DNA of 64,000 bases from Antedon bifida (Eukaryota; Echinodermata; Crinoidea; Comatulida; Antedonidae): contig OY727093.1 in the NCBI GenBank assembly GCA_963402885.1, positions 10,055,501 through 10,119,500 on the forward strand, read 5' to 3'. Shown here one piece after another: positions 11,469 to 38,100 of this stretch (position 1 is its first letter; every line of letters starts with the position of its first letter). The translations under genes were made by a program, and so were the position numbers. The notes under the pieces are model-generated. The model made no database searches, was not told where the DNA came from, and saw nothing but the letters and a program-made list of their open reading frames with translations.

Positions 11469-11820
11469 TAATTGTCTGAGAGACAATATAAGTATTCTTT
11501 TCAAACAGTGAATAATTATTATGTAACTTTAAAATGGCATATTAAAAAAAAATTGAAAAAAAAATTGCTTAAGGGACAAAACTGTATCTTTAAATGAAGT
11601 TTGTTGTGATGACACGCTTGAGTTGTTACAAAGTGACCTCATCTCATTGACCTTATTCGCACGTTTCATACGAGATAGTAAACACACACAAAACAAGGCC
11701 CGGAAATTCTGTATTGTTTGCTATACGGTATTTTTTTTATTGCATTGTCATTGTGTTTACAGTATTCAAATCTTTCATCATTATATAGCGGACGCCTGCG
11801 ATTAGGTTTAATATTCCTCT
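11469..11820. other. 5' flank of the SV2-like gene
   Basis: A stretch of 352 bases between the giant palindrome and the first coding exon. It probably contains promoter or leader sequence; no specific signal is recognised. The palindrome ends only about 350 bases from this start codon. Confidence 0.35.
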
Positions 11821-14800
11821 ATGCAAACATTAAATAATACCATCGGTAATGACCACAGTGTACTTCGTAGGCCTATGCACCACACTGGTGACCAGCTCGC
11901 TTCGGCTACAGGTATAGCTGCAACAAATCGCTCTCCCGCCCGGAACAATTTGAAGAACGAAAGGACAGAAGCAGTTGAAATGGAAGATGTCAATAGTACA
12001 GTACAATATGGAATTGAAGGAGACTCGATGTTATCAACTGAGGAAGACACTCCGTTGTTAAATGCTGAGGATGAAGATGATGAAAGAGAAGACAAAGGTA
12101 AACACTACTACAGTCGACCTACTGTACTACTAGGCCTAGGCCTACATACAGACTGACCTCAATAAATCAATATTCCTGCTTAGTACTATCTGAACATCAC
12201 ACAAATAAAAAAAGTGCAGCAATTCGATATTCAACCTGCACATCAAAACTCATACAATTTATAAACACTGCTGCGGCTGTATGTGACCATTTTTATATTT
12301 TATTAAATATCATTTAAATTTTAACTACTAAATATTTTTTTAGATGGTTCTGGACTATCTTACGATGAATCAATTGAAATTGTTGGTAGGTTTGTTTCTT
12401 AAATTATCATTTCTTCTAATTATTATTCTTAACCTTTACAATAGATTTAAATAATGAATTGTTATACATTTGAGTAGAGGAATCAACCAAGTCCTAATTA
12501 GTTAAGATTAAAATTCATTCTTATTTATATATACTGTAAATTTTAGGTTTTGGAAAGTTTCATATTCTGCTATTAGCAGTATGTGGTTGGGCAAATGCCA
12601 GCGATGCCGTTGAAACCTTAAGCATATCATTTATCTTACCATCTGCAAAATGTGAGATGGACCTTAGCAGTTTCCAGCTTGGCGTACTCAGTGCAGCTAT
12701 ATTTTTGGGTAATATTTTAATGTTACTACCACCATACATGTCTTGAAGATGAAAATATACTTTGGTATGTTCTTGATAAAGAGACTTGAACTCTGTCTAC
12801 ATTATCATACTTTATTATCCATATATGGGCATTATGATGTCATATATCACTACCATATTTGGGAATATCACTACCATATTTGGAAACATCACACTTTTTT
12901 TTGTCAAAATAGTTTGATAGTGTTGACAGAGCTTTGGATTAATCATTAAAACAAAATCACTTGAATGCATACACAAGTTTAGATACTAGTTCAGTTCTAA
13001 TTTTGAAATTGTATTTTGAATTCTCGTAATTTGTTCTTTCCTCAGGAATGATGGTTGGTGGTTATGTTTGGGGTGCTCTGAGTGACATTCGAGGTCGTCG
13101 TTCGGTTCTGCTATGGTCGTTGTCATGCAATGCCCTCTTTGGTCTGTTGTCGAGTATTGCACAGAGTTACTGGCTTTTTGTTCTTATGCGTTTTTTAAGT
13201 GGCGTTGGGTAAGGTATTTGTTTATTCTTTACAGAAATGTAAATTTTCAAACCCCATATCTTAAAATAAAGTAAGCATGTGTTTTGTAATTCATTGATTT
13301 TCTTTGTATTTTAGTGTTGGTGGAGCCACTCCAGTGATCTTTAGTTATTTTGGTGAATTTCAGCCTAAAAAGTGGCGCGGTGCAATGATAAGTTTACTTT
13401 CTATGTTTTGGATGTGCGGTAACATCATCGCAGCAGGAATCGCTTGGATAATTATTCCAAAAAGTATAAACAACTCAAGTAAAGGTTTTTCCTACACTAG
13501 CTGGCGTGTGTTTATTTCCTGTTGTGTTGTACCTGCTTTTACGTCAGTTTTAACATTCATTTTTATGCCGGAGAGCCCCAAGTTTTTACTTGAGGTAAGT
13601 GTATTTTATAACACTAACTAACACACACTAACTAGATTGCATTGGACGATTGTGGGTCACATTATATGAAATAAATGTGAGCTTACCATATTGTTATGTA
13701 CAATGTATGTTCATTTTTGTTACACAGTGAGTGAGTTGTTAGTGGATAGAAAAGACAATTTTGAGCCCTGTTTTTATTTGGTCTGCAACTAGTCAAAGCG
13801 AATTTTTAAGAAACAAAATTTTATTTTATTATCCATTTACACTGTTTATATGTATACCAATACAGTTGAATGGTTCTGTAATGTATTTTCTACAATAGGG
13901 ATGCCTCATATTTGACTTATATTATCATTGTAAAAAGTAAACCCAAATTCAATATAGTTATAGATATATTGAATTTAGATCTGCACTTTAAAATGTGATA
14001 TGATGACTTGCAATTCTTGTTTTGTTGGTTGAATATACTTTCTTTAGTACTTGGTCCAATGACATTTATTTTTATAGTTTATATAAATATTTAGGTAATA
14101 TAACAAGAAACAATTATGAATATTTCTTGCAGAATGGTCAGGAAGATAAAGCAATAAAAGCATTTAAAACAATGTGGTTACTAAATAAAGGAACAAGAAA
14201 AGGATTTAAGGTTTGTTTAAAGAAATATAGTTTTAGTTTCTATTCTATTCTAGAATTGTAGAAGATGACCTTGCTACATTAAAGTCAAATAATCACAAAG
14301 GTCAATTTTTATGAAAGTCCCGATTCTTCCTATATCTTCCTACTAAAGTCGAATTAGTACCTTTTATTACTACAGTACTATATTGTAATATCATACTTTT
14401 TACTTTTTATTAAGAAGATTAAATTTGTTGATTTTGGTACACAGTTTTATGCAGAACACTTTGTAAAATAAAGTGCCAACCTTTTTATTTAGCTAAAAGT
14501 AGGTTATATTGCCTTAAATTAATTCTAAACTTGTTGTTCTTGTTCAATTTTAATTCCAATACTGTAATGTAATAGATACAGTAAATTATATAAATATGGA
14601 ATAAGGACCTTAAGAAGAGGTCAATTTGCTTTTTGAAAATAACGTTTGGTAGACTACACTTTAACCAATTACCTAACTTAATAATATTTTTAATTTTTGT
14701 TTAGATTTTTTCCTTACGCAGTGTTGCAAGTGAAGATCAAATACAACAGAGAGTCTCACTATCAAGTAATTTAGGATGGATAGCATACTATAAGGACAAT

Positions 14801-17800
14801 TTAATAGGAATGTTAAGGTCTACTGCCGAATTATTTGACAAGAAACTTTGTAAAATCACTATATTACAGCTTATCATTATATCAACTTTATCATTTGGGT
14901 AAGTGGTTCTGTATTTTAAGATAAAGTAAAAGGGGTTATATAATTAAACTAGAGGGTTAACTCCTATGTTATGTATTGAATGTGTCATTGTGAGAATTTG
15001 TTATACAACTCTTGCCATATGTAAAATTGAAGACTTTTACCAAGGAATTATTCATTTTGTTACCATTACCAATAATAATATAATTAATCTATTGTATTCA
15101 TGCTGTTATATATACTGAATAATGATTTTGAACAGATGGCAGCCATTTTAAGCCCTGTCCTGTTTTGTACACTTTGTATCGCCAAGTTGACTATCAAGAA
15201 GTTTGTTATACATTAAAAAAGAATTAATTGAAAATACCACAAATTGTTAAGAAATCCGTAAACTATTATAAAAATAAAACTTTACAAAATTCCTTTATCC
15301 TTTATTCAAAATTATATAATATGCCTTTACAATGAGAACAACATACGGCCATATTTAAATATGCACCTGATCGGTTTTTAAATAATTCAAGCAAAATACC
15401 TTAAATTTACATGACTAAGCATAATTACCTTAAGGCCCTATTTAATAACAGCCTGGTGAACATACTTACATAACTGTATATTAAACATGAAGACAAACAT
15501 GCATTGTCAATAAGAAATATCGCTGAGTATACAAATATATTGGAACAGCAGAGATGTGAATTATTGATATAGTTAGATTATGTGAGACAATGTCTGGCAA
15601 ACTATTCTAGAAAACTGGTTTACCAATTGCAACCAATTAACTCACTGATAATATGCAGAACACCTTTTAAGTTTATGATTTTTCAACATTAATACCTTAA
15701 TTTTTTGTGTATTTTCTGATGATTATTAAATAATTTGTTGAATCTACTGTAAATAAATTAGATTGAAATTTAGTGGATGAAAATATGATTGTGAATTTAA
15801 ATTAATCTCTATGCAACATAAATACTGTATACAAATTTAAAAAGTATTTTTTATTTCCAGGGAAGAGTAATTTCAGTCTTCCCTGATACTTCTGTACTTT
15901 AAATTGTAAAATTGTACAGTATAGTTATAAATTTCACCCCTTGTTTTTACAGTTATTATGGTTTATACATCTGGTTTCCGGTGCTATTCCAACAAGTAGA
16001 AATAACAGGGTCCGCGTGTCGTGTCAGTAATTCTAGCGATACCAACGATACTTGTATCAATGGTGTTGTTGAGTATAACCCACAAGTATATAAAGATTCA
16101 TTCTATACTGCTGCGTCAAATCTACCTGGTAACATAATAGCTACGTGTTTAATTGATGTTGTTGGTAGAAGATCACTCGTTAGTAAGTTTAGTTTTACCT
16201 TTTGTTTTAGAATTTTTTTGGTTAAAGCTGCATTCACACTGATCCTACATTCTGGTCTATTGGCTGGCCCATAAAAATCGTGGAAAATGCTATTATTTTT
16301 TTTTAATAAGACCATTTACACTCATTCTATACAATCGTAACATATCCCCAAACGTCTATTCATAAGGCATCTTTTATAAGTGTTAAAGTATCATAGGGCG
16401 CGTTTAAACAACATGCTATTACACACATATTAAACAAGAAGTGTGTATAACATCGAAGAGATTCAGTGTAATGAGATTTTAATTGCGAAACAGGCTACTT
16501 GGCTGAATCTGAACATTTTGTGGATTCCTGGTTGCTATTGGCGTATGTTTTGACCTCTTGTTAAATAAAAGTATGTGCTGTGAACATTTTGACCAAATCT
16601 TGTATATAACACGGTATTACGATTTAATTTAAAACTGCAAAGGGGGTATGTTGACCTTGGCCCCTACAACACGCTAAAATTAAAGACATGTTCAAATTTT
16701 ATAAACACAGCCTTAGTGTAGATAAACACATTGTTTGTATAAAAGCTATATTATTATGTTTTAGGTAGCAGCCTGATATTGTCAGGTATTTCAGTGTTCT
16801 TTATCTGGTTGGTAAGAAACAGAACACAAGTGCTTATCATGTCGTGTATATTTGGTGGTATTAGTACAATTGCTTGGAATTCATTTAACGTCTTACAAGT
16901 GGAGCTTTATCCCACTCATCTCAGGTAAAAGTTTATTTATTTTTTATATTTGTTTTCTTAAATATAGACCATGTACAGTATACTAATTTTAATTCACTAA
17001 AGGAACAACTTAGTTTAAAATTTGGAAGGTTAAATCATACTGCTTTTGGGGATTTAAGCCCTGGTGCACACTGTAGCTATCGGCTGAACCAACTGGCACG
17101 AATAACATGTGCCGCAAACTGTGATCGAGTTCTATCGGACGCATACTAAATGCGTACGCGAGTTTCTGATTGGATAATTACTTACTACGCTATACGGCGC
17201 GTGCTGATATATTGTAATAAATGCAAAGTGGAATTTTTTTCAGTAAGCTGTTAGCTCATGTTCGGCGCACACTTAAGGAAAATGACACGCGTGACAAAAA
17301 ATATTAAACACAATAGATATTTTCCTCACCGGCACGCGTGGTTGATTCCTCACGATTTGTCTGGCACACACTGTGAGCAAAGTGTTATTCGTGCCAGTTG
17401 GCTCAGTTGCCGGGCTTTAGCGGTAAGATGTGGTTGATATAATCGCCCCATTTGTACTTTATTCCTTGAGAGACAACAAATATCATAAAATGATGAATAC
17501 AGGACATCGCTGCTCTCGGCTACAAAACCTGATCAATCCATCTAGGATACAGGCAAAGTGTATATTTCAACATAATAAATGAAAAAGTATTTGTTTATTC
17601 AATTTTTTTTTTGTATTTTAGATCTACTGCTATCGGTGCGATAGCCTTAGCGAATCGACTCGGTGCAATTTGTAGTACATTGGTTTTTGGTGCACTTATT
17701 AACGTTTACTGTGCAGTGCCTATTTTTATGGTTGCAATTTTAATGGTATTTGGTGGTCTACTTGTTTGGGCATTACCAAATACAACACGCAAATCTTTAG

Positions 17801-17805
17801 AATGA
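11821..17805 (+). CDS. SV2/SVOP-like major facilitator transporter
   Basis: Multi-pass membrane transporter of the SV2/SVOP branch of the sugar-porter-like MFS. Exons 11821-12097, 12344-12385, 12547-12708, 13046-13208, 13315-13594, 14133-14210, 14705-14898, 15953-16182, 16765-16924 and 17622-17805 sum to 1770 nt (589 residues), every junction matching in phase. After an acidic cytosolic N-terminus of about 105 residues comes GFGKFHILLLAVCGWANASD (TM1). The MFS motif A is GALSDIRGRR (near 166-175), then SGVGVGGATPVIFSYFGEF and PESPKFLLENG, which are close to SV2 text. TM7 begins YYGLYIWFP. The luminal loop after it (near 415-450) is short, with N-glycosylation sites, and lacks the long pentapeptide-repeat domain of vertebrate SV2. 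Later segments LPGNIIATCLIDVVGRRS and VELYPTHLRSTAIG complete the fold. The substrate is unknown. Confidence 0.87.
12791..12931. mobile_element. 141-bp MITE, family with a second copy at 63620-63750
   Basis: Ends CTCTGTCTACATTATCATAC (left) and the inverted match GTTTGATAGTGTTGACAGAG (right) enclose short repeats of ATCACTACCATATTTGG. The same internal text and right end recur in the mannosidase intron near 63620-63750, and a similar end lies near 40403. Intronic, in the SV2-like gene. Confidence 0.6.
15858..15885. repeat. short hairpin repeat, copy 1
   Basis: CAGGGAAGAGT followed after a few bases by the inverted GTCTTCCCTG, in an SV2-like intron. Related hairpins lie at 20602-20655 and 24258-24300. 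Confidence 0.5.
17057..17416. mobile_element. 360-bp MITE, PIF/Harbinger-like, TTA duplication
   Basis: Terminal AGCCC and GGGCT are flanked by TTA on both sides (17054-17056, 17417-17419). A perfect 19-bp inverted pair, CCAACTGGCACGAATAACA at 17089-17107 and its complement at 17383-17401, lies inside. No coding capacity. The 3-bp TTA duplication suits the PIF/Harbinger superfamily. It sits in the last intron of the SV2-like gene. Confidence 0.6.
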
Positions 17806-20019: not shown

Positions 20020-23000
20020 ATGGGTATTCCATCTATATTTATATTCGTATTCCTTGGATTTTATTTAAAGTTTTCAGTGGCCCAAATTCCTGATTCGACA
20101 GGGACGCTACCAAATGCAAGTCCCGATATACGAAATGATTGTCGGTATCCCGTTATAAAACAACCCGTCGTACCTGGGAAACAGTAAGTATTGAAACACT
20201 TTATTTTATTTGATATTTGTTACTATGTATGTAAAGGCAGTAAAAATGACAATATTATTGTGCTTAATTTAGAGAGAAGGTAACGTAATTTGTTGATATT
20301 TTAATGTTTCATTAAAAAAATGTGTATGGTATAAAAACATGACTGTGATTCAATCCCCGGCTAGGCCCCTAAACCAGCTGGTCTTTTCTATTTAAAAAAA
20401 GACCATTGCTCATGCTGGCTTCCAAACGTCGATCGGCTTTACAAGAAATATAATGTTAAAAGCTTGACATTTCTATTTTGTTCGCTCATTTCAGCCGATT
20501 CGACAACCCTCATTCCATGATACACGGACAAAATGTGACATCCGGTCATATATTACAGCATTGTGTTGATGATGGTTTACCTTAATGCATTATAAATATA
20601 GGCCTACCAAGGAAGAGTGAGAGTGAGAGTGTAAGTTCACTCTTCCCTGGGCCTACATAGATCAAACATAAGATTCCGAGTTCGAGTCTTTTGATTTTTT
20701 CTCCACCTTGGCAGGTTATTTCATCGTTTTATATTTGGCGATTTTTCTTGGAAAGGAACCACTTAAGATCAATGGTTGTCATTTGTATTATGTCTAATAA
20801 CTTTGACTTACTGGCTTTCGTTGATGACTAAATGTAAAAAAACATGATATAAAACAGTGGTTTGTGCGGAATCAGTTATTTCCATGGACTTCTTCTGACT
20901 AATATTTGGTGTGCCAATTATCTCATGTCTGTCTTTACTGACAATAATTAATAAAGTTGAGTAGGTTGTGATTTAGCATTGACATTTAGTAGGCCTACAC
21001 TAACATTAAACTTACTGAAAGTGTATAATAACTTTGATAATACAAAGTTAATAATTAAAAGATTAAAATCGTGAGACTCATCAATAGAAACGGTTAATAT
21101 GAAATGATGCATTGTCCGTTTGTTTAATTTAGGAAAAAATGTTCTTAAAAATCTATCGTATTTATATAAATCGTGCTATTTTTGCTCTAATCGTTAGTTA
21201 CGTTGACTATAAACAGCAGTGTATATATACACTAACCATTTACAGTAATAGGTTATATTTTTGTACAATGGTTTTCTTAGGAAATTCTAAATTTGTGAAT
21301 AAAATTTTAGCTTTATGATTTGTTTTAAATTATCACAATTAGATGCACTCTTGACTTATACTGAAATGATACAATTAATTATGAATGTAGCCATAAATGG
21401 GTTAGTAGGCCTAATCCGTTTGTAATATTACTGCTGAAATTAATAACGGTGACCTTTACTTCGAAGTCCTATTTTTTTCACTGCTAACTGGGACTACAGT
21501 TTTGGGCCTACTACTGAAATATGTCGCTTAATGAAAGACCTTCCGTTTAGTCCGAAATGTTAACATGGAGGTAACTTCTTTACACGGTTGGCCTACACGC
21601 ATCATTGTGTAATCGAATGATCTATAAAATGGAAAAAACATCCCCAAAAGTGTTTCATCCATGGAACGACATCATGATAATATGGCAAGCAATTTTTTTA
21701 TAAACAAAAAATGAGTCACTGATAGTTTGCTTTAATTCATCTCATATTTACGAACATTTTCGAATTCAGGTTGTCACTTTCTCTCCAAGGATTGCTCTGT
21801 TCTAAATTAAGTTTGTTGTCTATCAAGTCATTAGCTGATATAGAGTAACTTTCAATTGAAAATTAATAAAAACCGTTCAAATCGAATCAATTGATTAGAA
21901 ATAGCATATCTAACCTATCGTTTCATCTATACTAATTCAATAAATGGGTCGTCATACTTCTCTCGGTCAATAATTGTCTATTATAACCACCCCGGGGTTA
22001 TTACCAGTCTGCTGGGGCCATGGTTCACATTCCTCAAGTAGGTTTGATACAAGACTAGGATTGGTAAATATTAAATTCTTCATTAAATTACAATTAATTA
22101 ATTTACCAACAAGTAATGATTTCCGTCTTAAAAATTTAATGCGCCCTCAGGGACCTGGTGATGTTAATCGATCTTAGACTCTCATCCTGATAAAATTACC
22201 ATAGAATTACCATTTCTATGTATTGATCTCAAAAGAATATTTTATACTAAATACTGTACATAGTCGTCCTATTCTAATTTACGTATAATATCAACTTTCT
22301 TATTTCTCAGTCACTTATTGGTTTGTGTTAGATTACCGTAGATGTGAGTAAGATGGCTCAATAAATACTTCCTGTACTATCCATGCTGAATTTCATTTCA
22401 TTCCTTGTCTTTTCATATTTGTTCATAGCATGGAACAACGAACCATCAAAATAAGACTCTGTAAATGCGTTTATTCATAAGAAACAAAGACTCTCTCATA
22501 ATTGTTAGCTCTTACCTTATTTTGTAACGTATTTGGTTAATTTTAGGATGAAGATAATGATGTTCATAAGTATTCATAACAATAAGATTTTTTAAATATA
22601 CCTTGTTTTTAGGAGAATAGAATACAAGTGTTGTGACGGTTGGGGTAAAACTCAAGGAAGAGATGCCAAATGTGTTCGACGTAAGTAGTCATAGGCCTAA
22701 CAGTATATTAATCGATTGATAGCACATTTATTTCTGATTGAAAATAACATTGTATAATACAAAATGACATTTTATTAGTTTAAAATAATTCATCTATATC
22801 TCTCCATTTATGAACGTAGAAATACACGTTACATTATGAATATTATTATATTATTTCATCAGTTCTTGCAAGAAAATATATTCAATAACTCCAAACTGTT
22901 TTCCCTGTAAAAACCCACCCAACGTTTCCGTCTTATTTTCTTTATAACAAGGAAGTGTATAGAGTTTTATTTAGAAGATTACTCAATAATTAAAAACACA

Positions 23001-26000
23001 CGAAACTGATTGAAAAACAATTTTTTATATAGATAAAAATTAAAAATTGAAATATTACAACAACTGAATGGCTTACGAAAATTGATCTAATTTTAGCCAG
23101 TGATTAAGTGGATAGAGTCAGACAGGTGAAGGAATGGAAAAAGCCTCTGCATTTAGTCATTGCATAACATGACAACTTGTTTGTGTTAGGCTCAATATAT
23201 TTCAAAACGAAGATCAACTTGACAAACTCACTAATAAAGTTAAATAGTTCAGATGATGTAAAAGTGTGTCGTTGTTTTATCAGGTATTGCTAACTTTGTC
23301 AGATCAGTAATCTTTGGTTCAATTCATTTGAAAGCTACAGTTTTTGTTTCAACAAACAAAGTTGAACATTGTTTTTTTTTGTGTTTGAAATGAACGATAC
23401 GCCCTTACTAAGGGGTTTCACTTACAGTTTGATTCATCTTAAATCTGTAAAAGATTTTTTTTAATACAGCCGTTTTTTGTTTTCTTCTTCAGAACACTGC
23501 CCTGTCGATTACAAACGCGGGTACAAAGACGGTTGCTATAAGATAGTGACATCATCAGCCTCTTGGCACGAAGCTAGGAACGCTTGCCAGATGACGTCGC
23601 AACCTTCTATAAAGACTAGGGTATCGTCTGATTTGGTTGTCATTGACAATGAAGAGGAAGAGATGTACGTCAGAAAGGAAATACATGCCACTGCAATGAC
23701 TACAGCATGGATAGGTAATCATAATTAAATCACTATCATCAAGTTGTGAAGTAAAATGGCAGAAGTTCTGTCTAGTGTTTCCATAACAGATGTAGAGGAA
23801 ACTAACCAGGTTAAACTTAATCTAATACGTTCGTTGAAAGAACGTAAGTCACAAAATCATTAAAAACTACCACACTAAGTGGAATGAAATCACAAAATGC
23901 ATTAAATTCCAGGTGGGACTTGAATCTGCCTTCTCCAGTATAAGTACCCTCCTCTTTGTACCTTGTCCCAAAGATCAATCTATAACCGCATGTTGGTTGA
24001 GGTTTCCAAAGTTTGAGCTTGAATCTCACCTGCAACAATCTGTTGGAAGAATTTCATCTGGTTGTAGAATAGGTATTATAGGTTGTAGAAACGTACTGTA
24101 AGTTCGCTTATATTAATTTTTGGTTGTTCAAAAAGAAATTTTATTTAATGCAACAATCTGTATTAGACATATTGAGTCAGCTTTACGTAAGTTAGACAAC
24201 AATTTATAAAAACTACACTATCATTTTCTTAGTTTATAATAATGTATTCATATTTATCAGGGAAGTGTTAAATAAAATAAAGTAATTTAACTCTTCCCTG
24301 ATATTTATGTTGATGATTTAAATGTTTCCGTGTTATTCAAAATGCAATAATTTAATGTAATAATTATTTTAACATCGAAAGCTGGCTTGATACCATATAT
24401 ACAATGTAAATTGATTAAATATGAAATCAACATTTTAAAGTTCATCATCAAACAATCATAATCTTCGTTATTACGTTAACGGAGTTGTTTTTGGTTGATA
24501 TTTGATTTCAATGACGTTATGTAAATGTCATCACATTACAAAGTCATTAGACAATCGTGTGACATCGAATGTGATACTAATAATTATGTGTCCAAGCCTA
24601 ATATTTATCTTTCTTTTTCCAAAAGAAATTAGCGTTCATTCTAACTGTATGATAACCATTTATGCTGTCTTTGATAAAAAAAATTGTTCGTAATCCAATC
24701 AAATGACGTCATGATCGATAAGAACAATTAAATCGTCACGATATTATTGTTCTTATAAATCATGACGTCATTTGATTGGACGTGTGAAAATAATATTTTC
24801 TTCAAAGGCAGAATAGATGATTATAGTTCTAAGATGAAAACCTTTTATATTGCTTTTGTTTATGTAGGAAAACGCATATTTATCTATTTATCGTCGATCG
24901 TTATCGTCATAGTATAAATGAGCCTTTACAGTAGCTTATACATATTATTATACTATCATTATATAAAAAAAGAATATAAATATGTTTTCACATTTTAATA
25001 ATCTGAACAAGACTGCGTATCCGTCCAATTTGTTTAAATTTATTGAAATTAAAAATAAAAACATTTTGACGCGGCGCCTTGTTTAAAAAAAAGTAATATT
25101 CTATAAATTGCATATAACATCATGCATTTGAACTAAATATAGTAACTTTGAACTATATAATTATATATTATTAAAAAAAAAAATAATGTTTTCACATTTT
25201 AGTGTCTAAACAAGACTATATCTCTCCAATTTGTTTTGAAATTAAAAATACAAATATTTTGGCATGGCGCCTTGTTTAGTAAAAAAAAAGTAATATACTG
25301 TCTATAGATTTCAGATAAAATCATACATTCGTTAATCCACGCTTGGTTGTATAGCGATAACCTTATAAGATCGGGGTTATTCGACCTCAATTGGCCCGTA
25401 AGTTTTATCCGAAATCCGGAATAACGACATTAATCCTAAGTGACATTATTCTGTCGTTAAACTTTTTTAAGTTGTCTGAAATAATAATATGAGTTATATT
25501 TTTTAAACCGTTATAGAAAACATTTATTATATATATAAACACATCAGGCACAGAACATGAATTCTAAACCGCCCGGTAATATACTGAAATTTAATTATTG
25601 AATTAATTGTTTTAAACGATAAAGATGAGGAAATCTGTCGCCCTAACCGAGATTCGAACCCGGAACCTTCTGCTTGATATGCAGATGTCCTAACCATTAG
25701 ATCACTGGGTCTTTTCATGGTATTGTTCGAATATATATATATATTAAATTAACATTGTTTTGTTGTTATTTGAACACGATAGGTTTGAGGGAAATTTCAG
25801 TTGACGGCCCGCTAGTATGGGTAAACGGTAGCCCGCTGGAAGCGGTACGACACAACTTTAAATTTGGTGAACCAGACGAGAATAAAGACGGAATGGAAAG
25901 TTGCATCAGTATTGGAAATTCAACACATGGCATGAAAATGATATGGGAAGATAGACGATGTTTTAACCTTAAAGGATATATATGTGAAGTTCGAAGTAAG

Positions 26001-29000
26001 TCAAACTATTATTTCAATATAGTTATTCATTTCATATTTCATTCATTTGGTTAAAAACAATTACAATAACAGTATACAAGAAAAATGTATGAGAACAAAA
26101 TTACAAGCAATACTTAGAAATGGGAGTTAAAGGTTATATAAATCTTCCATTAAAAGCAAAACACATGATAATTAGGATCAACATTCAAATACAAGTTAGA
26201 CAATTATATTAACGTAAAGATTTCGATCAGAATAGCAAAAAAAAAACCACCGCAATTAAACAGGTTTATTTCCGTTGGTGTCCTCATTTAAAAAAACACA
26301 AACTTTTCCATAACATTTCGGTGCTTAACCAACTTCCTAAATAGGCCTACATTATTTTTAATATCACTTGTTATTGGTGTATAGGCCTAACTGAAACTAT
26401 CTTCTCCGTGTCCGCCGTTCGGATAGCGTCCATCATCCTCCCCTGACCATAATATTTACGTTCCTTATTTATTTGTTTCAGGAGCCTGCCCTCCTGGGTA
26501 CTCTCAGAAGTTTGACGGAAATTGCTACAGATTTGTTTTAGATAATCCAAAAGACTGGTATAGCGCCCGCATGGATTGTAAACGGCATAACTTCGGAGAT
26601 CTTCTAATATTTGACCAATCGTTAGAGATACGTTATTACAACGCCGGAGAAACATTAGAATCACCACGCACGTGGCCTAATATATTCATTGGTAAGTTTA
26701 GGTGGTTTGGGTCTCTAAATGATTAGCCTCACTACGTATTCAGGTTTACAATAACTATTTCAACTATATATCAGACCTCGGTTAAAGAAATGAGATGAGT
26801 ATGTGCCATCTGTATAGACCTATGACCTGATTATATCAAGACAATCTAACAACAGGACACTGAGCTCGCATTGCCAGGATAGGAACTTGCAACAGTCCTT
26901 TGATTTTAAGTCTAGGTGCGACAAATACCAACATACTGTACTCTATGTACATTCTCCATGACGCGCGCGGTGTCTGTTAAGTTGTGTGGAACTCGCAGCC
27001 ACAGATAAACCCTTTGATCTCCGGAGCTCAGCATCCTGTTGTTAGATTGCCTTGATTATATAGTGTGTATGTATTATTCCTTCTGGCAGGCTTGTTTCGT
27101 GGAAGTGATGGATGGCGTTGGGGGAATGGTGACTTGTTTAGTGGACATTATGTTTCCAAGCATAGGCTAGCACAAGGCAATAACTTATGTGCAGTAGTTG
27201 ATGCATCTAGAATTATAAGATCTGTCAACTGTACAACTCCAATGCCGTACGCTTGTGAAATTCAGAGAAGTAAATTCAAATTTCTTATATAAAATAAAAG
27301 ATAAGTTAAAATTGTATTTTAAATACAGTTCTCTGGTCACTTGTTAATATCGCTACAAAGTTGAAATTTAAAACTTTCTGATAAAACGTTTAAATTTCTT
27401 GAAGCAAACGTAAGATTATTTAGCATTGTTAGTTTTGCAATTTGCTGTGCTAATTGTCAATCTCTTAGATTCTAGACTAAATATAATTGATAATCACTTT
27501 GATCTCTAAATATAATAGATACTCTCATTCAGTTCCAACAAGAAAGCAAAAGAATTGCTAAAATTACACTGCTGAATCCAAATTAATTACATTTCGTACA
27601 CGCGCGTGTTCAAATACTGATGAAAATGTAGCCTTCGTCAGAGTTGACGCGCGCGTTCAAATGATGACGAAATGTAAGGCTTTTGTACGCATGCGTCAGG
27701 GCTTTATGTATTTATGACGTCACTATATACTTGATTTCATTTTCTTTTTTACCTTTATACTGATAGAAAAGTGCCCATATTCAGTGGATAACTTGGGCCT
27801 AATTTTTAACATTTTCTTTCCTTTTGATGGAGATGTGCATTATTATTTCATTTTTTAATACTTTTAGACACAGAATGTTTTAAAGAAAATGACGCACAAG
27901 ATTACAGTGGTAAATTAACGGTAACTGAGAAAGGTAGAAAATGTAACGCATGGAACGAAACACAGTACTCGCGACGACATAACTACTGCCGGTATACACC
28001 TGGCCGGGATAGACCATGGTGTTTTGTAAATCACGGTTCAGCAACAACGTGGGAATTTTGTTATGTAGGAGAACCACAGAAATACTGCAATAAAGGTAAA
28101 ACACAATTATCATTATTATTATAAAATAAAAAACGCTTGAGTCACCCTTTTGCCGTTTTTCTCTCAGTCTCCATAGTAGACGTATTGTTTTGACGTATGC
28201 ATTTATTAGGAAAGCGCTGACTCTCCAGACATGCCTCTGAACTAGGCCAACGGACTAATAATGTCCACTTAACATTTCTTCTTGTTGAGCACAGCTATTT
28301 ATGGGAATTTCCCGTGTACTAACTACTGTACTGTACGATATATATTATTTCCGTACAACTCTGGCAGCGAATACCATGTGTATGATGTGGTAAAAAAGTA
28401 AAAGTGAACGTAATTTCCCGATAAAAACCGAACTGTGTGAAACTGACATTTCAATTTGTAAGAAAGATTTCCATTGTAATAATTATGTCAACGTCAGCGT
28501 CGACTTGGACGCAACGAACGACGTCACAACAGTTCGGGTGATCCGTCGCGGCGTGATGATAGATACGTCTTTGCGTTGGGAAACAAGCTTTAAAGATTGT
28601 CATTTTTAAATTCTATACAAACATTACATATCTAATTGGCGAATGTTTAGCCTACTGCAAACATACCTATACGACTCACAGTAGATTTAACACCGCTCCT
28701 TATATTCCACCCTTATATTACGAATTATAATATACTTTTTTCTCACTGTTTTGTATTATTATTTAAAATATTTACAATTTCAGGCGGTGCAACTGTAGAG
28801 TCATGTAGAGTTGGACAATGTCCCTCAGGATCAATATGTCACCCTGTATCACACGAGTGCATATGTCCTCATGGCTACGAAGGCCTACACTGCAATCGGC
28901 TGTGCTCCAATAACCGATGGGGTTATAAGTGTTCCCGAATGTGTCCATGTGGGAATGATGGAAATTGCGATCCAGTCACGGGGACTGCGCGTTGTAACGT

Positions 29001-31721
29001 TACGTGTATCGTAGACCAATCAAATACGTGCTCTCAGGCGTGTGGTATGATGTGTTTGGAGTATCTTGGCTGTCAGTGTGATGTTCTTGGAGAATGCATT
29101 TGTCCAGGTAAGCATGTTGGGAGAAGGACAAAATGTTTAGTTAAATGCATGGGAAACATACATACACTTAAACAAAAACAAAATGTATTTACAGAGTGGC
29201 GCATCTTTAATCGACACCAATTTAAATATTCGTTTGCTGGGACATTGGTCTCTACCAAAAAACAATTATAATCAGACATAATCAGAAATCTTTGATTCAT
29301 AAAGTGTGTTTAAAAATTGGGAATCAATGGTCGGTTTAAAATCCAGGTATTTTAATGACTCGGGAATTAATAGAAGTGAAAGGAAAGTTAATTTTGTTTG
29401 ATTACAATGATTTTGCAAAACCATTATGATTCGCAAACAACAACAAATTCGTTCATTCAGGAAATAAAACCGCGCTCAGTGTGGGAGGTAAAATTGGAAA
29501 GTCCTGTTTTTGTCCTAATTGAGTAAAGCCGGCCTATATCAATCTATCATGTTCCTGAACATTATCGGGGAAGTGTTCCATGATTAGGGGTGTCCCGGAG
29601 GAGGCGTTCTATTGTGTTATAAAACTATATTGTCTGAAAATGCATGCTTGTTTCCATCTTGCCCAACATGTATAATCATTTTCCGGAAAAAAGAAAATTA
29701 TCCAATCCTGTTTTACAAACCTATTATTGTCCTGTAGTACATCCAGATCATCCGGTCAATTATCAATTTGATTAGGACCAGGTAATATGTAGATCTAATT
29801 AGACAGATTTCGATTTGTTTCGAAGTCGCCATTAGTGAAAGAGACACGTGCGTAAAATATTAAGTGTACGCAAGCAGCATCTTCCATTACTTTGTTGTCG
29901 TCTAGGTTGATAAACTATGGCTCCCGAATCAAAAGGTAGGTGTAGTTAAAATATCGCAAACTATCGGTATTCTGTTGTTCCAAAAACCGAATCATTACAA
30001 AGTTTGTTTCTATTGTAGCATACGTCATGGGTGTTGGTGCTTTGGTTCTCGTCTTGTTTGCTGCGTTGTTCGTTTGCTTTGTGCTGTGTTGTCTCCGAAA
30101 GAAAATATTAGGAGAATCGAAAAAAACTAACAGTTTTATCAGGTATCTATTTGACGATGCTTGGCTTATAACAACATACTCATTCATGCAGTTTGAATAA
30201 CTTAAGATGAAACAATCTTGAAGACACTCTTCATAGGTTCAATCCAGCACCACCATAATAATAGGCCTACCTCTTTTGATTAAAGTTGTTTATTTATCGT
30301 TATCATTACCTTTTTTTTCAGTTAAAAAAACTGTAGACCTATTGTTTAACAGACTTCATTTAGCCCAGGCTAACAAGCACAATTTCTTTTTCAGACACTT
30401 AAGTTTGAAGAACTATCCGAAAGATGTGGAAAGCATTGACATGTGGATCTTTCCCACACCTTCAGAAGAAGACCCTGGCATAGACAGAGGTAAACTGAAA
30501 AATATGAATAACTAGCGTGATATGTATGCTTATGTAAAGTTCTTCATATAATTTAAACCCTCCCTGTCCCTGTTGATGTTATGGGTTAGTTATGTGTGCC
30601 TGCTAGCTGCAATAGGGATTATCACATCAAGAATATTTCTAAATGATATTATTTGTTCAATTATTTCAGAATCGACCACAAGAGGCAGTAAGGAGTCTGA
30701 AGATTCTGGTGTTGAAACAAAAGATTTCCATGAAACGACAAGCCTGTGTACGCAAAATGTCGAGTCTAATATGACGCCGACAAACAAACCTATCCCAATG
30801 AAACGAAACTCTAATCGTTTGAATAGAATGTTATATGCTGCAAAACGGAATGCGATTTTTAAACAAAAAGATGTCCCGGGTTTTGGTGCTAATTTACAGG
30901 AAAGTGTAGAAATGCGTGGAAAATGTAATGAACCCCCAGGGGCGGAGTATAGCAGTCCGTATGAGCTCAGAAACAAAGAATTGTTACTAGGTGACAGTTC
31001 TGAATATTATGCTTTTGCTGATCCGGAAGTAATTAATAATGACGTAAATGGTTACGTGAATGATTCAGTTACGAAAGTAAGAAGAAAAAAATGTGAAGAT
31101 TACAGATTGGCAGAGGATCTTAGTGCAAATAAAAATATGTTGTTTTTATCAAGCATACCCAAAGAACTTATTTATCCTAATACTAATGAAACGAAGACTC
31201 AGGTTAATCCTCAATATTCCTTACGAGAATGGGTTCAGCAAAAAACGCCATTAAGGTCAAAGGCTAAATGCCAATCAGAACAAAGAGTAGGGCCTGATGT
31301 GAAACCCAAACCTAGGACAAAAAGGATGATAAAGAATTTTTCAAAATCAGACTCCGAACTAAGACGCATGGATAACCATACAGGAGGAGGAAGACAAATT
31401 CGTTTTAACACAACATCAGGTCACGTGATGGAACATTCAGAGGACACGTCTGCTCCATTGTTAAGATCGTCCAGTGATAGCTCACATCGTAAGAATAGCA
31501 AGAATGACGTCAGAGATCCAACCATAACTCGTTCGTCAACTGATGGTGTTGTTCTTGGGAGTAAAACATCAAAACAAATTGTATCGTCTATTGTTGATGG
31601 AAACGCACGTTTTAAAAAACATAAAACTACGGAACCGTCATCGGTATACGTAAACGAACGGATCGGAAGGCATCGACGATTGTCGCAACCAAAACCAATT
31701 GATGTATATGAAATAATTTAA
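20020..31721 (+). CDS. single-pass receptor: EMI-like, two C-type lectin domains, kringle, EGF repeats, long tyrosine-bearing tail
   Basis: Predicted cell-surface receptor. Exons 20020-20183, 22613-22680, 23493-23714, 25783-25995, 26482-26691, 27090-27269, 27868-28095, 28784-29107, 30019-30142, 30395-30489 and 30670-31721 sum to 2880 nt (959 residues) with all phases matching. A signal peptide (residues 1-21) precedes a short EMI-like segment ending IEYKCCDGW. C-type lectin domain 1 (about 79-222) has CPVDYKRGYKDGCYK, WIGL and WEDRRC; domain 2 (about 223-352) has CPPGYSQKFDGNCYRF and YACEIQ. A kringle-like domain (about 353-429) shows RKCNAWNE, NYCRYTPG, RPWCF and WEFC. A cysteine-rich EGF/laminin-EGF-like segment (about 429-536) precedes the membrane helix (about 538-562). 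The tail of nearly 400 residues has no enzyme domain but carries YVND (Y738), YVNE (Y936) and a terminal VYEII (Y956). I recognise no named orthologue. Ligand and signalling are unknown. Confidence 0.82.
20602..20655. repeat. short hairpin repeat, copy 2
   Basis: AAGGAAGAGTG and the inverted CACTCTTCCCTGG, with AGGCCTAC and GGCCTACAT extending the symmetry outward. It lies in the first intron of the receptor gene. Confidence 0.5.
24258..24300. repeat. short hairpin repeat, copy 3
   Basis: CAGGGAAGTGTTAAAT and the inverted ATTTAACTCTTCCCTG, in the receptor intron that splits the first lectin domain. Confidence 0.5.
24694..24920. mobile_element. small inverted-repeat element and dispersed repeat
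   Basis: TCCAATCAAATGACGTCATG (24694-24713) is inverted as CATGACGTCATTTGATTGGA (24761-24780). The text from about 24738 to 24920 recurs at about 46396-46580 in the acyl-CoA dehydrogenase pseudogene, with the shared landmarks TTTGATTGGACGT, TTCTTCAAAGGCA and CGATCGTTATCGTC. A non-autonomous dispersed element is likely. Confidence 0.55.
24984..25330. repeat. two-copy tandem repeat, offset about 204 bp
   Basis: Text beginning GTTTTCACATTTTA at 24984 recurs at 25188. Both copies contain CCAATTTGTTT, GGCGCCTTGTTTA and AAAAGTAATAT. The copies are diverged by several substitutions and small indels. Intronic in the receptor gene. Confidence 0.65.
25640..25711 (-). pseudogene. tRNA-like sequence (tRNA pseudogene or SINE head)
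   Basis: On the minus strand a 72-nt cloverleaf can be drawn: D-arm region ATCTAATGGTTAGGAC, anticodon stem TCTGC/GCAGA around loop ATATCAA (anticodon ATC by position), and T-arm CCGGG/CTCGG with TTCGAAT. The acceptor stem pairs poorly, with two mismatches in seven. That and the odd anticodon argue against a working tRNA. A tRNA-derived repeat is the likely source. Confidence 0.5.
26836..27055. mobile_element. 220-bp MITE with TTATA target duplication
   Basis: TCAAGACAATCTAACAACAG (from 26836) and its inverted match CTGTTGTTAGATTGCCTTGA (to 27055) bound the element. TTATA flanks it at 26831-26835 and 27056-27060. The inverted ends run about 35 bp to GAGCTC. It lies in the intron that splits the second lectin domain, ending only 34 bases before the next exon, so it must contain or abut the branch-point region. 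Confidence 0.75.
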
Positions 31722-34700
31722 GACAGGCAAATGAAAAAGTTTTTGAACGGTTTTCAACGTAAACGAACGTAAGACTTGCCCCGTCGGCTGGTCAGTCCCG
31801 GGTCGGCCGGTTTGCATTAAAACTATTTAAACGTGTAAAATGTATAAAATGTATCTTGACTATAAATAAAATAAATTATTAATATTCAGAAATGTTGATC
31901 ATTACTGACTTTGTATAGGCTTACTGCATTTAACTGTTAAGGATATTGAATATCCGATAGTAAATTAAGTAAAATTAGAAGTGGTATTTTGCCAATATGT
32001 TTATAGTGTGTGCTTAAAAGGAGACCTTTTATTTTCACGACGCAAACACATGCAGCTGTCGAGTCAAAATGTCATTCTGATCAACCTCAATACGTAGTCG
32101 CGTTGCGTAAATTTTAAATGGATTATATGCATACATTATTATTATGTACATTATATAACTGTATTCACATTTATTTTGAAGCAGTCCAAAATTACAAAGA
32201 ATTACGCGATGTTGTATTACGATAAATAAGTGTTATATACACGTTGCCATTGAAATTTTAATGCTAGAGTATTTTATTTTCAGTTAATATGACATTCAAT
32301 AATTCATTTTTACCTACCTCTAATGATTTGAGAAATAAACAAAAAACTAATTAAAATTAAACTATTAAATTGTTTCAGCCTCGTAATTTGTATATTTTGG
32401 GGGTTTTTTTGTTCATTAATTAAAAAAGATCATATCATAATAATATAAATAAGGTTTATAAGCTTACTGTACAACTGTGACCTATGACCCATGAAAGTGT
32501 CAATAAAAAGGACGTTACTTTCTATTGACTATGTTTAAACAGTTCGTATGAAAGCCTTTAGTGTAATAACGTTTAACGACTATACCACTCCAATTTGCGA
32601 ATACATAAACAAGAAACGGAAATATTAAAGTTACCACAATAGTTCCTGATATTTATCATAGCCTATCAATATTATTGTCCTAAAGGCTATTATTTTCCTT
32701 ATACATCTGTGTTTTTTAACAGCAATACATGACCCCAAAGAAAGCTCATTTTGAGTGTAGAATGTTATGTGGTCCTTAGATTGGCAGGAGTATTGGTATT
32801 AATTGTGATTAATATAACTAAAAGTTTCGCATATATCAGTTTAAACCAAGGTAGAGATTGAATTAGACAATATATCGTATAATGCCATACAATTGGCCAC
32901 GTTTGTATTTCGGTCCATATTTCTTACTGTCGTCTGTATAGGCTGGCCTAATACAAGTTTTTTTTTAATCTTCTCGAGCATCTACTTCCTTTAATTCTAT
33001 TCTACTTTTAGTCATATTAATTATTCTTTTACGGTGTTTAAAATGTTTTACACTTTATTTGTTAGCATGATATACAATTTAATTTTATTATGTTTCCTTT
33101 GTAATGTCTTGTATGATGAAATAAAAAAAATGTTATACAATTGAAGGAAGAAAATATATGTTCTGTTGACATTTCTGTTGAAATTATATGGTCTGGCTGT
33201 TAGTCCTACGAGACAGGGGAATACCAGCATTTAAAATTAGCGTTTGGTTAAGAGAATGAGAAAATTGCTGACAATTTTTAATGACTTGCAGAGAGTTCGT
33301 TTCGGTTGTATTGTATCAATTGTGTACAATCGAAAAGGTATTGTATTGGTAACTATGTGGGCAAACAACAGCAATATTTTCATGAAATCGTGCCAGCACT
33401 AAGGTATACTACGTCACTAAAACCAAAGTAAATCCCGGTACAAAAAAGGAGATTTGAAATATATCATATAATATATCTATGGATAACTGCAATATTGATT
33501 GTTGAGTCTGGTATATGGGTGATGCTATATGCAAATGTATGTACTGTACTTGTTGAAAATAGATATGTATTTGATGTGATCTGTAGCTATAGCTACTGTA
33601 TGATTATCATGCAATTCTGACATTAGCACAGCCCTTTGATATATAACTTAAATAAATTTAACCTATTGAAAGGTGTGTGAAGCTTTTAAATTGTATCTAT
33701 CTGTGATAGTTGCCTCATGTTTGTGTTTTAATGAATCTATGTAAACATACATATTTATAATGTTATGATGATAAATTAAACCATTGAGACTAAACTAGTG
33801 TTTGAACACTCCACACGTTGAAATGTTTGCAGAAAATCATGCTAAGTGTATTATATTTCGTACTGTAAAATACTATCTATATCTTATGAACATCATGTTA
33901 TATTTGTATCTAAAAGTGTCGATAAACAATACAGCTATTTGTATTCATTTCAGTAGGCATAAATACAGCAGATAATTGTTTTCAATACTTTTATTGCGCC
34001 ATCAACGTACAAATTTTCTTATATAAACGTTGAGTACAACGTAACATCCGAGGCAGACGACACAGGAATGTGATTGTTGGTGTATCTAATGGTATTCCAG
34101 AACGTATGGTGTATCAGGCATATTAACTACCAGGATTTGTTTACTGTAAGTACAACATGAATGTTATCTAATCAACTAACCTACAAACTGCATAACATGA
34201 ATTAATAGCTTTTAAATCTTCCTAAGTTTAGTTCGATAATTTTTAAGATATGGTTCAGTAGACAACTTAAGTTGTTGTATAGGGATATGTTTCCGTCAGA
34301 CATTTTCAATTTTCAAAAGCTTTTATTGGGTAGCTGGTTTTTACGCTCTAAACGTACATTTATGACACAGCAATTGCTTTTAGTGTGGCATAATAGTGTA
34401 TATGGTTTGTAGTTTTTCTTTGTGAACAATAACAGTTTAACGTCAGTATGTAGGCTATACTTTAAAAATCCTTTAGTTTCGATTGATGACGTAGATCGAA
34501 GTTTAATTCTTTTCATTAGGAATCAAGATGTAAAGTATACTTTCAGAATGTCTCAACGGACAATATCTTGACATTATTTTTATATTTAATGACTGTAAAA
34601 TGCTATTATACTTACTTGATACTTTATTGATAATGTTGGTAGTTAAGCAATTTCCAATAATGGACAAATAAACTTAATTGAATTTAAAGATGACTACTTG

Positions 34701-35123: not shown

Positions 35124-35136
35124 ATAACAACTTCAA

Positions 35137-38100
35137 ATGAAGTTGTTAAAAACCTTTAAACAGATATTGCATAGACGTCCACACAGAAGTTACTCAGAAA
35201 CATTAGTACCTTCTGATACTTCTGATACTTCTGTAGTACCTCAAGATCATACCATGATCACGTCTTGTTCTTGTCCGCATCTATCAATAAAAGCACACGC
35301 AGAGGCGAACACATCAAGAAGTTATGAATGCAGTGATGATTCATGCAGTAATTCACTTAACAAGAACATAAATGATAACATAGAAGAGCTTGAAAAGGAT
35401 TATGTATTTTTGAATAAACCAAAGGACGATCCAAAGGACGATATATCCATGAAATTACCAGCTGCCACTGAGGCATGTTCTATTGATAGTAGTATCAAGT
35501 CGTTCGATAGTTTATTATCATCGCCGTCTTCGTTTGATTCTAGTGACAATAAGGCATCATACTCTTCAGAATGTCAATCGGATAATATCAATCAATTAGT
35601 ATGTGTGAAACCGTCATCTTTAATATGTGGATCTAACTGCACTGATGGAGAGTCCGTATATCTTTCATGCGTTGATTGTGAAGAGAACATCCAAAGACCA
35701 ACCTACCAGAGGCAGACATCAAGTGCGTCTTCAAACTGTGACGTCATTGAAGTGGATTATGAACCACCTGCACCCATTCCATTTTCTGAAATACCTGCAA
35801 TGGCACTTAGTATAAAAACAAGGACTCAAATGTCACTTCATTTAAATCCTCCTTTACCATTGGGCAACGATTGGAAAATGCTTGCTGGTGAACTGGGATT
35901 TGAATATTTAGAAACGGAAAACTTTAATAGAAAAGATGATCCTACAGGATCAGTGATAAACCAATGGTCAACAACAGGAGATAGTACGTTTAAAAAATTA
36001 CTCGATGCATTGAAATTTATCGAACGATTGGATGTTATCAACAGTGTTACAAAGTATATGGGTAAGTAAATGACGTCATTTATTTGTCTCCTAGATAAAT
36101 GCTCTCATAAAATTCAAACTATCAGTAATATTGCCACGTGCGTTCAATTTATGATGGAAACGGTGCCATGTTGTGTACGCGCGCGTCAACTATACAGTAC
36201 CGTATAGCTTCCACAAGCGTTCAAAATATGGTACGCACGGTTTGTGTACACAGGCTTTAACTTGATAGCTTCTACTTGTTTACGATTTTACTGAGTATTT
36301 ATTTTGAAATTCTTAACAGTATGGTAAAGATCTATTTACCTTTTTCGGTAGAGTCTTTGCTTCAGTAAATGTGTTTGTATGTTAATAATATTTTAATATG
36401 TTCAATAGAGAGAGATGCAGACGCTTGGAGGAAAAAAATGGAACGAGAGGCAAACCCTTTTCAACAGACTCCGGTTTCACAATGTACGTTGATCATAATC
36501 TAATAGTTAAATAAATCAGCTGCTATAAATGATTGTTTAATTGATGATTTAAAAATTAAAACATTTTGTTTTCAAAACAACATTACCGTATTTTATTGGA
36601 AATATGTATAACAATAATTAATTATAAAAATTTTTTTAATTATTAATTCACACGTTATACTCAAATATTCTTCAATCATTACTGAAGTAAATAATAAAAT
36701 CAATATGCACTATTTCTTGACATGATAAACTGATTTATAATTTTTAGTTGCTGCAATAAATTATCCAAATTTACCAGTGACACCTGAGAATCGAGGTATT
36801 ACTCTCCATGACCATCCGAGTGGTATGTATCATGTGATCACTATCATAAAAATAAACATAGCAATCTGAACAATATTTGCATTATTAAAACATTATTCTA
36901 ATTTTAGATTGATTATTAAATTTAGTGTGAACACATGATATTGTTTTAGTCTTGTGTCAATAGCACATTATTGACATTGGTAGTATTACAAATAATATAA
37001 AGTAACAAAAATAGATATGTTTTTCTTGTTACAACGGTAATAAATATTGATGATATTGATGCAAATGTAAATTTTAAAAGGAAGAAAAAAACAGTAGCTT
37101 TTAAACTTTTCGATTTCGTTACTACTTCCAAATATGGAAAATATTTTGATATATTCATATAAAAAAACAAAACAATTTTTCTAGGACCCATCGAAACTTT
37201 TGATGCATTTGTTTGCTTTACAATTGATGATCGTGAGTTTGTGAAAGAGATGATGAAACATTTGGAAAGTCATCCGTTTAACATGAAGCTATGTGTCGCA
37301 TTTAGAGATCTGGTTCCAGGGGCGGCATGGATGACAACATCGGCGGAACTCATTGGGAAAAGGTACTGAAAGTGACATTACTTTTATTTGGAAATTCTTA
37401 GCAAGTAATTCTAATTCTTAGACTGAGTAATTGATTGATTGATCACTTTATTTCAGGATAAAAATTCCACAAAAATACTTCAAAGAACTAAAATGAGTAT
37501 TCTCCCATTTAGTGAAGATATTTGAAGATCGTATGAGATAGTTCTTAGTGCACCTAACAAGATCATTCACTATTCAAAACTCTTATTCTAAAACCATAGA
37601 CGCACTTGCTCGTAAAATGAGGGTATTCTTCTCCTTGTAGTTCCAAGGGAACGAAATTCTGTTGATTGTTGTCAAGGATGTTATAGACAACTCTTTATTA
37701 TAATTATTATAATTCGTTAGTTCATAATTTGTTGACATCAAATAATATTTAATGTTTGGACACAATTTTATTAAATTTTTTTAATGATTATTTGATTTAC
37801 AGATGTAAGAGAATGATAGTAGTTTTATCACCACGATTCACCGAAAGTCCGGAATGTGACTTCCAGGCCAAGTTTGCACTGAGCCTTACACCAGGTAATT
37901 ATGCCTTATTTTTTATAGTTAAAAATTGCAGTTAAGTTATATTTATCAACTGTTGCTCCTGTTGCATGATAGATCGCATTATATTTATAGATCTTATGTT
38001 GCAAAGATTAGATTGATCGCATTATAATTATAATCTTAAGTTATTGATTAACTTTCACTCAAATATTGACAAAGCCTAGATTTATATTAGGAAATGTGAA

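Follow-up and report, generated by a model that had tools for sequence, protein, structure and literature searches.

The locus raised the question of whether eleven exons on the forward strand of a 64,000-nucleotide stretch of Antedon bifida DNA (the window) encode one membrane receptor in which two lectin domains, a kringle and an EGF-type stalk precede a long tail, and whether such a receptor would be of an undescribed kind and signal through that tail. The window belonged to contig C1; the genome measured 315.6 Mb in 27 contigs. The receptor gene was modelled from sequence only (Table 1), and at this level the eleven exons of the original prediction (20020-31721) held: all splice junctions were GT-AG, the joined frame encoded 959 amino acids with zero internal stops, and rebuilding the gene reproduced both the exon coordinates and the tyrosine numbering (Y738 and Y936). 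Given how often stops occur in the receptor introns (0.072 per triplet), the log10 probability of 959 consecutive codons without a stop was about -31; this estimate is naive, as the splice sites were picked to preserve the frame. None of the 5,798 intron windows of the same length as the stalk exon, and none of the 2,397 of the same length as the last exon, were stop-free. From the intron stop density and these windows, an open frame of this length is therefore not expected by chance. The G+C content was 41% in exons vs. 32% in introns.

Only two stretches of the joined protein exceeded the hydropathy threshold (residues 1-24 and 529-568); on hydropathy only, a signal peptide was predicted at about residues 1-21 and a membrane span at about residues 537-561. 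The junctions between the start of exon 3 and that of exon 9, both included, were all in phase 1, and introns split both lectin domains at the same place, within the W/F-I-G-L motif. This shared intron position, together with the uniform phase-1 junctions, suggests that the lectin domains arose by duplication of a two-exon unit. In lancelets, shuffled domains spread preferentially as the phase-1 class, according to one study (PMC4284660). An in-frame ATG was present at window position 19978 (forward strand), 42 bases upstream of the start codon at 20020, and its use would put 14 residues before the signal peptide. Intron 3 harboured a tRNA-Asp-like gene with anticodon ATC (window 25639-25711, reverse strand; ARAGORN and Rfam). 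As this anticodon is unusual for a eukaryotic tRNA-Asp, the gene may be a tRNA-derived repeat.

Table 1. Exons of the putative receptor gene and downstream polyadenylation signal candidates (positions in the window)
Feature	Position	Strand	Content
Exon 1	20020..20183	+	Start codon, predicted signal peptide (about aa 1-21; hydropathy), start of Cys-containing N-terminal segment; donor gtaagt
Exon 2	22613..22680	+	Short CCxGW segment; EMI-like call unsupported
Exon 3	23493..23714	+	Lectin domain 1, first half; phase 1-1; Pfam PF00059
Exon 4	25783..25995	+	Lectin domain 1, second half; EPD...WED motif
Exon 5	26482..26691	+	Lectin domain 2, first half; Pfam PF00059
Exon 6	27090..27269	+	Lectin domain 2, second half; without EPN/WND motif
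Exon 7	27868..28095	+	Kringle; six Cys; Cys2-Cys3 loop shortened
Exon 8	28784..29107	+	20-Cys stalk: MEGF/Tie/SREC-type EGF, then divergent Cys-rich part
Exon 9	30019..30142	+	Membrane span (about aa 537-561; hydropathy) and start of tail
Exon 10	30395..30489	+	Tail
Exon 11	30670..31721	+	Bulk of tail: Y738, Y936 (YVN), NPQY 789-792, C-terminal DVYEII, stop codon
Possible polyadenylation signals	31865..31875	+	A[AT]TAAA matches, about 145 bases past stop
Further A[AT]TAAA match	31816	+	About 95 bases past stop

Both C-type lectin domains claimed for the extracellular part scored above the Pfam cut-off for PF00059 (22.6 bits), with 55.9 bits for domain 1 over exons 3 and 4 and 27.9 bits for domain 2 over exons 5 and 6, and both matched the profile of the CTLD superfamily. 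Among the best 60 of 93 matches in a sequence search of the PDB, DC-SIGNR and DC-SIGN, both calcium-dependent lectins, aligned with the whole of domain 1 (best E 1.6e-12). The best solved match of domain 2, again among the best 60 of 93, was an NKG2D chain (8tm0; E 6.6e-11, in two stretches), the other NKG2D chains reaching E values of only about 1e-5; NKG2D is a protein-binding lectin-like receptor. The usual calcium/sugar motif is EPN or QPD with WND, though not every member of the CTLD superfamily needs to have it. Domain 1 departed from the canonical form, with EPDEN at 181 and WED at 206, and neither motif was found in domain 2. The acidic EPD and WED substitutes of domain 1 might still bind calcium. 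Glycan recognition, which had been proposed for the lectin domains in general, is thus plausible for domain 1, the only one to keep a modified motif, but not for the NKG2D-like domain 2.

The kringle claim was confirmed by Pfam for exon 7 in isolation (41.0 bits; cut-off 34.3) and by the presence of all six cysteines; the same profile gave 29.6 bits within the whole protein, below the cut-off, and 34.2 to 40.7 bits in the genome scan. Identity to 18 other aligned kringles of the source genome was 29-44%. The AlphaFold model of this exon (mean pLDDT 84.5) had 110 PDB matches in Foldseek, of which 3 had E values no higher than 0.001; t-PA kringle 2 was the top match, the ROR1 kringle was among the fold matches, and the best 50 of the 110 were kringle proteins, identified in part by title. 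The predicted model supports a kringle fold for exon 7, a support dependent on the sequence call because the AlphaFold input alignment was itself made of kringles. In lysine-binding kringles, the acidic residues of the lysine site lie in the NPDxD region. In the alignment of genome kringles, the receptor had YTPGRD in place of the consensus NPDG, and the acidic residues of the lysine site were missing; with this substitution and the shortened Cys2-Cys3 loop, classical lysine binding is unlikely. The closest kringle that also had a short loop was at 30.82 Mb of contig C7 (44% identity), among exons which read by eye as LDL-A-like and SRCR-like.

The stalk, 108 residues with 20 cysteines, had been described as EGF/laminin-EGF repeats. 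Pfam did not bear out the laminin-EGF part (14.9 bits, below the cut-off of 21), but phmmer against the PDB matched Tie2 (E 4.8e-7) and SREC-1 (E 2.1e-6). Approximately the first 72 residues were 36-42% identical to seven aligned MEGF-type repeats of the same genome (7 of the 9 non-self loci; two with in-frame stops were excluded), and the stalk was classified from its sequence as an MEGF/Tie/SREC-type EGF. Its last third was divergent and Cys-rich, with no assigned relative. Forty-three of the 44 MEGF-type stalk matches (self included) were on the receptor's own chromosome, C1, and some shared a single open frame (1622 codons in one case, 1069 in another); this concentration could reflect clustering of ancient origin or a restriction imposed by the first look of the search.

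The N-terminal segment, with four cysteines and a CCDGW motif, had been called EMI-like. This designation found no support: the mature segment matched 0 Pfam families at E up to 10, and introns 1 and 2 contained no missing in-frame exon under strict settings. A looser scan gave four candidates in intron 1, none of them EMI-looking, and none in intron 2. A recognisable EMI domain was rejected on these grounds.

The tail began at residue 562 and comprised 398 residues with 12 tyrosines, in agreement with the claims of about 400 kinase-free residues and at least nine tyrosines. No domain exceeded its Pfam cut-off (the single match, 15.8 bits vs. a cut-off of 27, was taken as noise), and the only match in a sequence search of the PDB (E 0.56) was also regarded as noise. 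The two YVN motifs were at the predicted positions, and one NPQY (residues 789-792) was present which the original prediction had not mentioned. Eight motifs were counted and scored against 20,000 shuffles of the tail. Before correction for eight motifs, four were unremarkable: Yxx[ILV] (1 occurrence, P 0.89), [DE]xYxx[ILV] (1, P 0.23), RxxSxP (1, P 0.28) and PxxP (0, P 1). Three had uncorrected P values of 0.04-0.051: YxN (3, P 0.045), NPxY (1, P 0.051) and YExI (1, at the C terminus, P 0.042), the last of these chosen after the sequence had been seen. Only YVN would survive correction (2 vs. a shuffle mean of 0.048, P 0.0006), a motif likewise chosen from the seen sequence, in this case by the original prediction. 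No ITAM pair was found in the tail, which had one Yxx[ILV] only. YVN stood out clearly from the shuffles, but NPQY and the C-terminal YExI were borderline; SH2 docking by the tail motifs is for this reason put forward as a hypothesis.

A search of the genome with the whole protein gave at least 38 matches: the 11 exons of the gene itself and 27 elsewhere. With 48 of 185 candidates scored, these 27 were confined to the lectin domains, the kringle or the stalk, with no match to the tail among them. No paralogue with the same domain order was seen in this exon-by-exon search of the source genome, which, with 48 of 185 candidates scored, a diverged copy could escape. The tail alone had three matches at E up to 1 (both of its 2 candidates scored), all of them the receptor gene itself; the tail is therefore an orphan within the source genome. 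Lectin and kringle building blocks are plentiful there, since at least 158 lectin matches (150 of 558 candidates scored) and 64 kringle matches (profile scan, the receptor's own included) were found. At 14.41-14.44 Mb of contig C13, one strand had EGF and kringle exons together with lectin-type, FN3-like and discoidin-like ones, in an order unlike that of the receptor, the FN3 and discoidin identities being readings by eye and not profile matches. Exons of these kinds formed a cluster at C13:14350001-14360000 and 14395001-14445000, in which a near-duplicate EGF-kringle unit was present, its copies about 42 kb apart.

The EMI segment apart, the predicted order of two lectin domains, kringle, EGF-type stalk, membrane span and kinase-free tail holds, and no description of it was found in the open-licence literature (title and opening of the abstract, among the matches listed). 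In NCBIfam, residues 1-609 matched a lectin-containing polycystin model through lectin domain 1 (E 2.2e-10, but 37.6 bits vs. a cut-off of 1861.4); a second match was insignificant. Among the closest parallels were CED-1, Draper and MEGF10, which the receptor resembles in being single-pass, in having an MEGF-type EGF beside the membrane, and in its kinase-free tail with an NPxY and further tyrosines. It differs from them in having no EMI domain (Pfam), one short MEGF-type stretch and not many such repeats, no ITAM pair, and lectin and kringle domains instead. An ITAM consists of two spaced YxxL/I and is absent as such in CED-1. By its domain and motif content, the receptor is not a member of this family, because the EMI domain, the repeated EGFs and the ITAM are all missing; its likeness to CED-1/Draper is one of analogy only, there being neither an ITAM pair nor an EMI domain.

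Among the other close parallels, the Tie receptors gave the best solved match of the stalk, but the Ig, FN3 and tyrosine kinase domains were not found in the receptor (Pfam, E up to 1); SREC/SCARF1 also matched the stalk, but the receptor has no long EGF array and does have lectin domains and a kringle. Mannose-receptor-type proteins and CTLD group 14 (CD93, thrombomodulin) are similar in their type I orientation with the lectin domain(s) outside, and group 14 has its EGF nearer the membrane; the receptor differs from both in its kringle, and its tail is much longer than theirs. ROR, Kremen and PIK3IP1 are membrane kringle proteins which, like the receptor, have one kringle outside and one membrane span, but no Frizzled, WSC, CUB or kinase domain was found in the receptor (Pfam, E up to 1). 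Novel domain combinations were described for cnidarian scavenger and lectin receptors in one paper (PMC5119243), and diverse domain mixes, with the kringle among the partners, for SRCR proteins of 29 animals including sea urchin in another (PMC10855680). Module mixing is common in marine invertebrates; an unfamiliar order is thus to be expected and is not surprising by itself. The architecture of the receptor is well formed, of a known general kind, and probably undescribed.

Our preferred reading, to which we assign somewhat less than an even chance, is that of a domain-shuffled, single-pass type I lectin receptor which would signal or internalise via its tyrosine motifs and work in a manner similar to CED-1/Draper/MEGF10. 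The receptor would have been assembled through exon shuffling; lectin domain 1 would bind glycan on microbes or altered self, and lectin domain 2 and the kringle would contact proteins and not sugars or free lysine. A multivalent ligand could cluster the receptor, leading a Src-type kinase to phosphorylate the tail; NPQY might then recruit an adaptor of the PTB kind, and the two YVN motifs an SH2 adaptor of the Grb2 type, resulting in endocytosis or phagocytosis and in Ras/MAPK signalling. PTB and SH2 readers dock onto NPxY and further tyrosines of MEGF10, Draper and CED-1, according to one source (PMC8092387). The stronger proposal of a receptor class undescribed so far and specific to this animal's lineage, combining a lectin-kringle head with an orphan PTB/Grb2-docking tail, phagocytic or immune-signalling and of an origin separate from the ITAM-type lectin receptors, is rather doubtful.

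A developmental adhesion or matrix receptor is a competing explanation that we consider unlikely but worth serious attention. Here the lectin domains and the kringle would bind matrix glycoproteins, the tail would anchor the cytoskeleton or be regulated through serine phosphorylation, and the tyrosine motifs would be incidental. The missing calcium/sugar motifs of lectin domain 2 and its NKG2D match (best 60 of 93) fit such a role, as does the adhesion-like mix of lectin-type, FN3-like and kringle exons at the C13 locus. The tail also contains RRLSQP, a basophilic-kinase-type site, but the RxxSxP pattern did not stand out from the shuffles. A predicted membrane-bound kringle protein is required for adhesion in a flatworm, according to one report (PMC9229212), in line with the adhesion role. 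The excess of YVN over the shuffles argues against incidental tyrosine motifs.

An endocytic scavenger receptor without any signalling role, in which NPQY would drive clathrin-type uptake, would account for the single NPxY and for the SREC-type stalk, but uptake alone does not call for a tail as long as this one (398 residues, 12 tyrosines), and we regard this explanation as improbable. The fusion in the model of two adjacent genes, for example one encoding a secreted protein with the lectin domains and the kringle and another encoding a membrane protein, is very improbable: symmetric phase-1 exons can join many partners in frame, so that the frame alone is no proof of linkage, but the modelled exons contained no second signal peptide, the hydropathy threshold being exceeded only at the two stretches given above.

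Should the tail signal, as in the preferred reading, the gene would represent a lectin receptor tied to uptake and Ras-type signalling via a non-ITAM route, and a clean case of phase-1 exon shuffling making a new recognition head. Well-studied vertebrate lectin receptors use ITAM-type motifs. Should it not signal, the receptor would be one more mosaic of a kind abundant in marine invertebrates. The orphan tail is the most interesting part.

The receptor gene was followed after 3.4 kb by a death-domain exon on the same strand (window 35128-36066, forward strand; Pfam 42.5 bits, cut-off 22.6), with a long Ser-rich region before the death domain; a further exon seems to lie near 36408 (by eye). 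The death-domain exon was considered as an alternative receptor tail but probably belongs to a separate downstream gene. Other coding exons of the window, all on the forward strand and read by eye, were similar to a carbohydrate sulfotransferase (1979-2893), an SLC22-type transporter (11812-17805), an acyl-CoA dehydrogenase (49592-50683) and an alpha-mannosidase (62601-62972).
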